The notes under the pieces are model-generated. The model was given only the letters and a program-made list of their open reading frames with translations. It was not told the origin of the DNA and ran no database searches. Shown one piece after another: positions 35,793 to 64,000 of a stretch of 64,000 bases of DNA (positions are counted from its first letter, which is position 1; each line of letters starts with the position of its first letter). The DNA comes from an uncultured Clostridia bacterium (GTDB lineage: Bacteria; Bacillota; Clostridia; Oscillospirales; UBA644): contig CAOJUB010000006.1 of the NCBI GenBank assembly GCA_948443805.1, forward strand, positions 1 to 64,000, written 5' to 3'. The translations under genes were made by a program, and so were the position numbers.

Positions 35793-35959
35793 CGAGCCGT
35801 AAATAATTGTTTTTCAGACAGCGGAAAAAGAAGAACGGAGACGAAACCGTTTCTTTAACGGAAAACCCTGCTTTCAGAATTTCCGATCGCGATATTTCTT
35901 TTCAGAAACTGCTTTTTGTCAAAAGAAACCGGCCGGTGCTGCCTTTCAAGTTTTATTCA

Positions 35960-36053
35960 ACAGCGGACGCGGCATTACATCGCGGGGCGACCCCCTTTCG
36001 TCCGCAGGCAACTTCCCATCTCTGCGGCACTAAACGCATAATGCCTACTCTGT
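35960..36053 (-). ncRNA. THF riboswitch (folT type)
   Basis: Minus strand CAGAGTAGGCATTATGCGTTTAGTGCCGCAGAGATGGGAAGTTGCCTGCGGACGAAAGGGGGTCGCCCCGCG...; promoter TTGCCC-17-TATAAT upstream; precedes folT. Confidence 0.9.
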
Positions 36054-36511
36054 ATTTTTATTATAGCATAAGTTTTCTGCAGGGGCAAGTTTTTTTTGAT
36101 TTTTTTACAGAATTTTCATTCTTTTTTCTGCCGTGCCGGACGGTTTCGCCGGCCGGGCTGCGGCAAATTTTCTTGCGTGTTTTTGCTTTTTTTCAGTTGT
36201 TTTCAAAATGTTCAATTTTTCCTCTGGGGTTTTTCGTCATTTGTACTGAAAATTTCCCGTTTCCGTCTTGCTTTTTGCTGAAAATCGTGGTATAATATAC
36301 TATAAAATATTCTGGAACTTTATCCTTTTTTGAATCGGGGCGTTTGCGCCGGAAGAAAGAAAAGAACGGGGGCTTTTCCCGGTCGGTTTTTTCGGCGGAA
36401 CGGTTTCCCGGACAGGTTTTGATTTTTAACGTTTTCAACCCTGACATACAAAAACAACAACGCGCGGTTTTCGGACGGCCTGCGGCGGAAAAGAAAGGAA
36501 TTTTCATCATC

Positions 36512-61823: not shown

Positions 61824-61852
61824 TTTACTTTTTGTCGGAAAAATGATATACT
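61824..61852 (+). promoter_or_regulatory. Promoter of the uracil permease leader
   Basis: TTTACT - 17 nt - TATACT. Confidence 0.6.
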
Positions 61853-61873
61853 GATAAAAATAAATAGGAAAAA

Positions 61874-61978
61874 CTGATCTCACGTACGGTACTGTGCTGC
61901 CGACAAGATTGACCCCTCGTGCTGTTTTTGGGGAGAGCGAAGACCAGATGTCTTGCCGGAGTCCGGCAAGATTTTTTT
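61874..61978 (+). ncRNA. Candidate cis-regulatory leader RNA (three-way-junction-like) ending in an intrinsic terminator
   Basis: P1 CTGATCT/AGACCAG; P2 CACGTAC..GTACTGTG; P3 CCCC..GGGG; terminator CTTGCCGG-AGT-CCGGCAAG-ATTTTTTT; antiterminator CCGACAAGA/TCTTGCCGG. Confidence 0.55.
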
Positions 61979-62080
61979 ATGGACAAGTATCAGCCATATG
62001 TGAGGCGGATTTCCCCGGAGAGAAAACGGCGTTTGGGCAGAAGGCTGTTTTTTTCCGTGAAAAGAAAGGATTGTTTCAAG

Positions 62081-63565
62081 ATGAAGAAAGAAAAAGTTGC
62101 TCTCGGCGACGCCGGGATCTACGACGCCCGTCAGTTGGGTGTCGGTAAAATGCTGATTCTTGGGGTTCAGCATTTGTTCGCCATGTTCGGCGCAACGGTT
62201 CTGGTTCCGCTTCTGACAGGCCTTGACGTTGCGACCACACTTTTATTCGCCGGTTTGGGAACGCTGCTTTTCCATTTGATTACCAAAGGAAAAGTTCCGG
62301 CGTTTCTCGGTTCTTCCTTTGCGTTTCTCGGCGGTTATGCCGGCATTACCATGCTGGCGGGAACAGCCGGATATGAAAATTTCACAACGGTTCAGCTTCT
62401 TCCGTACGCTTGCCTTGGCGTTGCCTGCGCCGGCTTGGTTTATCTGATTCTTGCCGCGCTGATTAAAGCCGTCGGCATAAACCGCGTGATGAAATTCTTT
62501 CCGCCGGTGGTTACCGGTCCGATCATTATTGCGATAGGTCTCGGCCTGGCGGGCTCCGCCGTTAATAACTGCCAGACAAACTGGCTGGTTGCCTTTATTG
62601 CGCTTGCCATTATTATTGTGTTCAACATTTGGGGAAAAGGCATGGCAAAAATCATCCCGATTCTTCTCGGCGTTCTCGGTTCCTGCCTGGTTGCCGTTAT
62701 CCTTTCGGTTACCTGCGGACAGACGATTGTTCTGGAGAGCGGCGCCGAGGTAATCGCCATTGGCGGAAATCCCAATTTCCAGCTGTTTGACGTTGCCGCG
62801 CTGAACGATTTTATGAACGCCGCCTGGATCGGTTTCCCGATCAGTCTTGACCGGACGATTTTCGGTATCGACTGGAGCCAGTCATCGCTGGTTATCAGTT
62901 CAATTATTGCCATTACACCGCTTGCCCTGGCGACCATGATGGAGCATATCGGCGATGTCTGCGCAATTTCTTCCACTGTCGGAAAGAACTTTGTTCAGGA
63001 TCCCGGTCTTCACCGGACGCTTACCGGAGACGGTCTTGCAACAACGATCGCATCGGTTTTCGGCGCGCCGGCCAATACCACCTATGGTGAAAATACAGGT
63101 GTTCTTGCGCTTTCCAAAGTTTATGACCCCCGCGTTATCCGCATTGCCGCAGTTTTTGCCGCCGTTCTTTCTTTCTGCCCGAAGTTTTCGGCTCTGATAC
63201 ATCTGATTCCCACGGCGGTTATCGGCGGTATTTCCTTTGTGCTGTACGGCATGATTTCTGCGGTTGGTGTTCGCAATGTTGTGGAGAATAAAGTTGATTT
63301 CAGCAAGAGCAGAAACCTGATTATTGCCGCAGTCATTCTGGTCTGCGCGCTGGGACTCACCAGCGGTATCAGCTTCTCGGTAGGCCCGGCAACGATTTCT
63401 TTGTCGGCTCTTGCCGTTGCGTCGATTGCCGGAATTCTGCTCAACGCGGTTCTTCCGGGAAAAGACTATGTATTCTCAGCGGAAGACCCGAAAGACACCG
63501 GGGTAAATTTTGCCGTGGGGCAATCTGCAAAATCGCTGACAGAAGAAAAGTCGGAAAAGAAATAA
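62081..63565 (+). CDS. uraA: Uracil permease (NCS2 family)
   Basis: MLILGVQHLFAMFGATVLVPLLTGLDVATTLLFAGLGTLLFHLITKGKVPAFLGSSFAF; MEHIGDVCAIS. Confidence 0.95.
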   Translation: MKKEKVALGDAGIYDARQLGVGKMLILGVQHLFAMFGATVLVPLLTGLDVATTLLFAGLGTLLFHLITKGKVPAFLGSSFAFLGGYAGITMLAGTAGYENFTTVQLLPYACLGVACAGLVYLILAALIKAVGINRVMKFFPPVVTGPIIIAIGLGLAGSAVNNCQTNWLVAFIALAIIIVFNIWGKGMAKIIPILLGVLGSCLVAVILSVTCGQTIVLESGAEVIAIGGNPNFQLFDVAALNDFMNAAWIGFPISLDRTIFGIDWSQSSLVISSIIAITPLALATMMEHIGDVCAISSTVGKNFVQDPGLHRTLTGDGLATTIASVFGAPANTTYGENTGVLALSKVYDPRVIRIAAVFAAVLSFCPKFSALIHLIPTAVIGGISFVLYGMISAVGVRNVVENKVDFSKSRNLIIAAVILVCALGLTSGISFSVGPATISLSALAVASIAGILLNAVLPGKDYVFSAEDPKDTGVNFAVGQSAKSLTEEKSEKK

Positions 63566-63671: not shown

Positions 63672-63682
63672 AAGAGCGAAAA

Positions 63683-63797
63683 TGATCTTCGGGGCAGGGA
63701 GAATTTCCCGACCGGCGGTAACAGTCCGCGAACGAGCCAAGCTCGCCGAGCAGGTGGAATTCCTGCGCCGACGGTATAGTCCGGATACGAGAAGACA
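63683..63797 (+). ncRNA. FMN riboswitch (RFN element)
   Basis: GATCTTCGGGGCAGGGAGAATTTCCCGACCGGCGGTAACAGTCCGCGA...GGTGGAATTCCTGCGCCGACGGTATAGTCCGGATACGAGAAGAC. Confidence 0.97.
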
Positions 63798-63844
63798 GCC
63801 GCATTTTCCTTCGGGGAAAGTGCCGGCAGCCTGTATGTAAAATA

Positions 63845-63926: not shown

Positions 63927-64000
63927 ATGAAAAACCAATCTCTCAAAAAAATGGCGGTTACCGCCTTGTTTGCCGCAATCAGCGTTGTTTTGATGTACCT
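63927..64000 (+). CDS. ribU: ECF riboflavin transporter S component RibU (5' part, truncated by window)
   Basis: MKNQSLKKMAVTALFAAISVVLMYL... directly downstream of the FMN riboswitch. Confidence 0.75.
   Translation, partial: MKNQSLKKMAVTALFAAISVVLMY

Follow-up and report, generated by a model that had tools for sequence, protein, structure and literature searches.

The closest described relative of the leader analysed here is the PyrR binding site (RF00515). Its anti-antiterminator, antiterminator and terminator overlap in that order ahead of a pyrimidine gene, and the binding loop of Bacillus subtilis is ARUCCAGAGAGGYU (PMC7430163). In Streptococcus pneumoniae a pyrR RNA is located directly ahead of SP_1286, a putative uracil transporter (PMC10942264). 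A second described system is the E. coli pyrBI (pyrL) attenuator, which senses UTP and likewise controls pyrimidine genes through a terminator. Among openly accessible papers, which leave out most subscription journals, no account of PyrR leaders lacking their protein came up.

For comparison 80 homologous uraA loci were fetched. Among these uraA was often downstream of pyrR. The pyrR leaders had the form CUUUAA..CGGUACAGAGAUGCCGACAAGAU followed by a terminator, with TTTAA..CGGTACAGAGATGCCGACAAGAT and a terminator in the pyrR-uraA leaders of relatives. Essentially all of the 18 canonical leaders had UUUAA and GNGA; this apparent invariance is somewhat inflated, as the sites were collected with a model favouring these letters. 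Both parts of the binding-loop stem covaried across 17 distinct canonical leaders (22 two-sided cells compared to 8.1 in shuffles, 0/500). The Rfam PyrR model picked the same spots in L031 (51.7 bits) and L136 (46.4 bits), and also in L106. All were below the cut-off of 54, which is why ordinary Rfam scans did not list these leaders. Because the model scores clear Oscillospirales leaders below its cut-off, the lack of an Rfam hit says little about whether a leader is an orphan. Two pyrR leaders (L027:1234-1290 and L029:1237-1292) apparently contained two consecutive PyrR-type loops, CAGUGA followed by CAGGGA or CAGAGA.

The window analysed is a stretch of 64,000 nucleotides from an uncultured Clostridia bacterium (GCA_948443805.1, contig CAOJUB010000006.1). 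The leader of interest comprises 122 bases ahead of a uraA-like gene and includes the start region of a promoter, a terminator hairpin and an upstream strand (61900-61908). The features are as follows.

61824 to 61852, plus strand: sigma-70-type promoter TTTACT-N17-TATACT, read from the sequence (hexamers 61824-61829 and 61847-61852)
61876 to 61910, plus strand: degenerate PyrR-type binding loop (anti-antiterminator), from the fold and homology to PyrR leaders
61900 to 61908, plus strand: antiterminator 5' strand CCGACAAGA, from the fold, shared in part with the binding-loop 3' strand
61951 to 61959, plus strand: antiterminator 3' strand TCTTGCCGG, from the fold, doubling as the terminator 5' arm
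61950 to 61978, plus strand: intrinsic terminator with a 10-bp stem, AGU loop and seven U, from the fold (hairpin 61950-61972, U run to 61978)
62081 to 63565, plus strand: uraA-like NCS2 nucleobase permease, the regulated gene, from the open reading frame and family models

The product of the regulated gene scored 290.3 bits with TIGR00801, slightly below the cut-off of 291.8, and the uracil permease model was second. Transcription was predicted to start near 61859-61861, downstream of the promoter. Folding and model alignments gave a two-part stem with an asymmetric internal bulge and a hexaloop. The lower stem is GAUCU (61876-61880) paired with AGAUU (61906-61910) and the upper stem is CGGUA/UGCCG (61887-61891/61898-61902). 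The hexaloop is CUGUGC (61892-61897) where the canonical loop is CNGNGA, and the 5' bulge is CACGUA where canonical sites carry UUUAA(GAG). As in the PyrR binding site, the 3' strand of the binding loop doubles as an antiterminator against the terminator arm, pairing at 8 of 9 positions. Binding loop, antiterminator and terminator are three mutually exclusive helices. It is well supported that the attenuator is real and that uracil uptake is controlled by transcription attenuation.

A first-pass annotation of this DNA had described the promoter with its 17-base spacer, a CCCC/GGGG hairpin, the strong terminator and the pairing of the upstream strand with the terminator 5' arm, and all of these were recovered by sequence reading or folding. 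It had placed them in an orphan riboswitch-like leader with a three-way junction, closed by a stem of 61874-61880 with 61941-61947. That stem has 6 of 7 pairs, is energetically possible and is included in the minimum free energy structure of 61862-61979 (-31.7 kcal/mol). It competes with the lower stem of the binding loop, which dominated transcripts ending at 61910-61945 with a probability of 0.90-0.97 when growing transcripts were folded. The closing stem peaked at about 0.36 in the later transcript steps sampled. It was not seen in the leaders of relatives read by eye, and no close relative turned out to have this leader; a BLAST search with the leader in 20 genomes of the same family gave no match besides itself. 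The main, stable hairpin is not the one proposed at 61881-61896 but CGGUA-CUGUGC-UGCCG at 61887-61902. The stability of the region as a whole was unremarkable (z = -1.08; 31 of 200 shuffles equally stable). At this z the stability of the fold is no evidence; the evidence is homology to relatives.

The best ungapped match of the leader was with L136 (22/26 identical in the core), and none of 200 and none of 400 dinucleotide-preserving shuffles was as good. The summed ungapped score was 307 compared to 252 ± 7.3 for shuffles and 266 for the best of 67 real upstream controls. Gapped alignment with the canonical leaders scored 217.5 compared to 131.8 ± 10.6 (0/500 shuffles). Judged by these alignments, 61876-61910 is homologous to the PyrR leaders preceding pyrR-uraA and pyrC in related Oscillospirales, although the first-pass annotation had seen no recognisable PyrR-type binding loop. 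The canonical leaders most like it (L136/L058, L031, L106, L111) differ in carrying UUUAA and the GNGA loop. Like the window leader, L031 is located directly ahead of uraA. L136, L106 and L111 precede an intact pyrR and the L031 genome has a pyrR start at a contig edge, whereas no pyrR was found in the genome of the window.

With CACGUA for UUUAA and CUGUGC for CNGNGA the letters that PyrR would be expected to recognise have changed. Of the conserved loop letters, C1, G3 and G5 were retained and the fourth, the last A of GNGA, was changed. Because the letters PyrR should read have changed, models of canonical sites gave just 10.4 and 7.0 bits on the leader compared to roughly 20-50 for canonical sites. 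These covariance models were not significant on the window and membership among canonical PyrR sites is not claimed. The Rfam search proposed in the first-pass annotation gave chance hits only in the leader region at E ≤ 10, with no match to RF00515 there or elsewhere in the genome. The leader therefore resembles RF00515 in the order and overlap of its three elements, its stem sequences and its place ahead of a pyrimidine gene. It differs in the changed UUUAA and GNGA, the lack of an Rfam match at E 10 and the lack of a PyrR found in the genome. The loop of a second pyrimidine leader in this genome has also changed.

PyrR (NF003549) was not found over cut-off in the genome of the window by protein and family model. 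The assembly is 98.85% complete, and a pyrR inside a gap between its 35 contigs is conceivable. The sole match to the PyrR model (26.5 bits) was identified by eye as an HPRT-like, hypoxanthine-type phosphoribosyltransferase. Among 20 genomes of the family PyrR exceeded the cut-off in six (G003, G014, G016-G019), and it also did so in 13 of the 50 genomes behind the other uraA loci. The PyrR-bearing family members carry one or two canonical PyrR sites while none was found in the genome of the window. In one further family member, G015, a canonical PyrR-type site was present ahead of pyrC (L185:1501-1540) with only a weak match to the PyrR model. With about 350 contigs in that assembly, its pyrR may lie in a gap.

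The second pyrimidine leader precedes the operon pyrC-pyrK-pyrD-pyrF-pyrE-pyrB-pyrI, named by eye except for pyrB. It reads AAUCUUUGCC-CGGU-UCUUACA-GCCG-AUAAGGUUU and ends in a terminator, whose arm CUUGUCGG is able to pair with the 3' strand of the leader. Both stems, lower and upper, are kept together with the antiterminator and the terminator, and no GNGA loop is present. Against the canonical leaders, gapped alignment gave a summed score only modestly higher than that of shuffles (3/500), and ungapped alignment did not exceed them (82/400). The homology of this leader to PyrR leaders rests mainly on layout. Canonical loops of this same type stand ahead of an apparent pyrC in several family members with PyrR and in G015; the reading frame confirmed pyrC in G015 only, where PyrR was not over cut-off. 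In the genome of the window, then, the switch layout survives in the two pyrimidine leaders and the docking letters are gone from both. These leaders have no loop or bulge sequence in common, and the terminator is the part most alike. The pyrC leaders of PyrR-less genomes were mostly without an attenuator, so no replacement motif in common was found.

Altered loops were also present in other relatives. Two uraA leaders (L076:1868-1906 and L078:1871-1909) are homologous to PyrR leaders and have flanks as in these, with the loops UGAUUA and UAAAUA, which are unlike the consensus and unlike each other. The L025 leader, from a genome without PyrR over cut-off and with a UraA 78% identical to that of the window, had a similar layout by eye. 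Its sequence did not stand out convincingly from shuffles (235/400 ungapped, 29-44/500 gapped), and for this reason it was not used as evidence.

The leader is best read as a switch of a known type whose state is unusual: its recognition letters are worn and its regulator was not found. It is probably a relict attenuator, now independent of PyrR, whose ancestor was under PyrR control. In the absence of PyrR-UMP as a stabiliser, the hairpin of the binding loop would form unaided, ahead of the antiterminator. Forming once transcribed, it would delay the antiterminator and a fixed share of transcripts would stop at the terminator. The leader would then act as a fixed attenuator, not responsive to a pyrimidine signal, with a drifting loop. 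An extra-stable hairpin as compensation for the lost PyrR was considered and rejected (-8.2 kcal/mol compared to about -4 to -13 kcal/mol in canonical leaders). The locus suggests a regulatory RNA that has outlived its regulator: its terminator logic persists as the letters for protein docking drift. This pattern would extend beyond a single leader, and perhaps beyond a single lineage. Canonical, degenerate and absent sites form a natural series for the study of attenuator evolution and of what an attenuator does without its sensor.

The main rival is a missed PyrR gene. A missed or much-diverged PyrR would still bind the altered loop with UMP and force termination, and weak binding is conceivable because C1, G3 and G5 of the loop survive. 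The architecture, the position ahead of a uracil permease, the PyrR of the six family members and the arrangement at SP_1286 all count towards such a working site. It is nevertheless unlikely given the absence of PyrR over cut-off from a nearly complete genome, scores of 7-10 bits, the loss of PyrR letters from both leaders and changes in precisely the letters, UUUAA and the last A of GNGA, that canonical sites keep.

Still less probable is that after PyrR loss the uraA and pyrC leaders became protein-free riboswitches sensing a pyrimidine or passed to another RNA-binding protein. Attenuator logic is retained in both leaders despite the lost letters, the competing junction stem is energetically possible, and the retained terminator machinery could mean that the leader still responds to something. 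Against this, Rfam matches in the leader were no better than chance, and two leaders without a common aptamer make a new riboswitch unlikely. Drift is preferred to a new sensor because the sequence common to the two leaders is confined to stems and terminator and the L076 and L078 loops differ mutually. The orphan riboswitch with a junction aptamer was therefore not upheld, given also the homology to PyrR leaders and the competition from the lower stem. The leader is an orphan in another sense, as the PyrR protein that would operate it was not found in the genome. An attenuator of the pyrBI type, with ribosomes on a U-rich leader peptide sensing UTP, is already disfavoured and very improbable; the uraA leaders of some other relatives look like this, whereas the window leader has no leader peptide and no Shine-Dalgarno-led frame ending at the terminator.

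Six uraA leaders (L033, L049, L162, L164, L168 and L172) contained a Shine-Dalgarno-led short frame, U-rich at its end. In these frames, for example MTVLGTGRVFLSFPFCV and MNDLFTDRKTVFFFHFFYDSGK, each ending in a stop, the stop codon adjoins an intrinsic terminator. Such leaders look like Oscillospirales counterparts of the UTP-sensing pyrBI attenuator of E. coli. The genomes of L033 and L049 are without PyrR over cut-off. Upstream of uraA in L038 (about 1835-1960) and L046 (about 1800-1930) a common attenuator-like motif was present, GCGGAT..GACGACGGGATGC..ATYCGC..CTTGTCGTC-terminator. It was no more like PyrR leaders than shuffles were, and both genomes are without PyrR over cut-off. Elsewhere in the window a THF riboswitch (RF01831, 75.4 bits) was located at 35959-36054 on the minus strand, and an FMN riboswitch (RF00050, 100.9 bits) at 63681-63800 on the plus strand, ahead of a gene starting near 63927.
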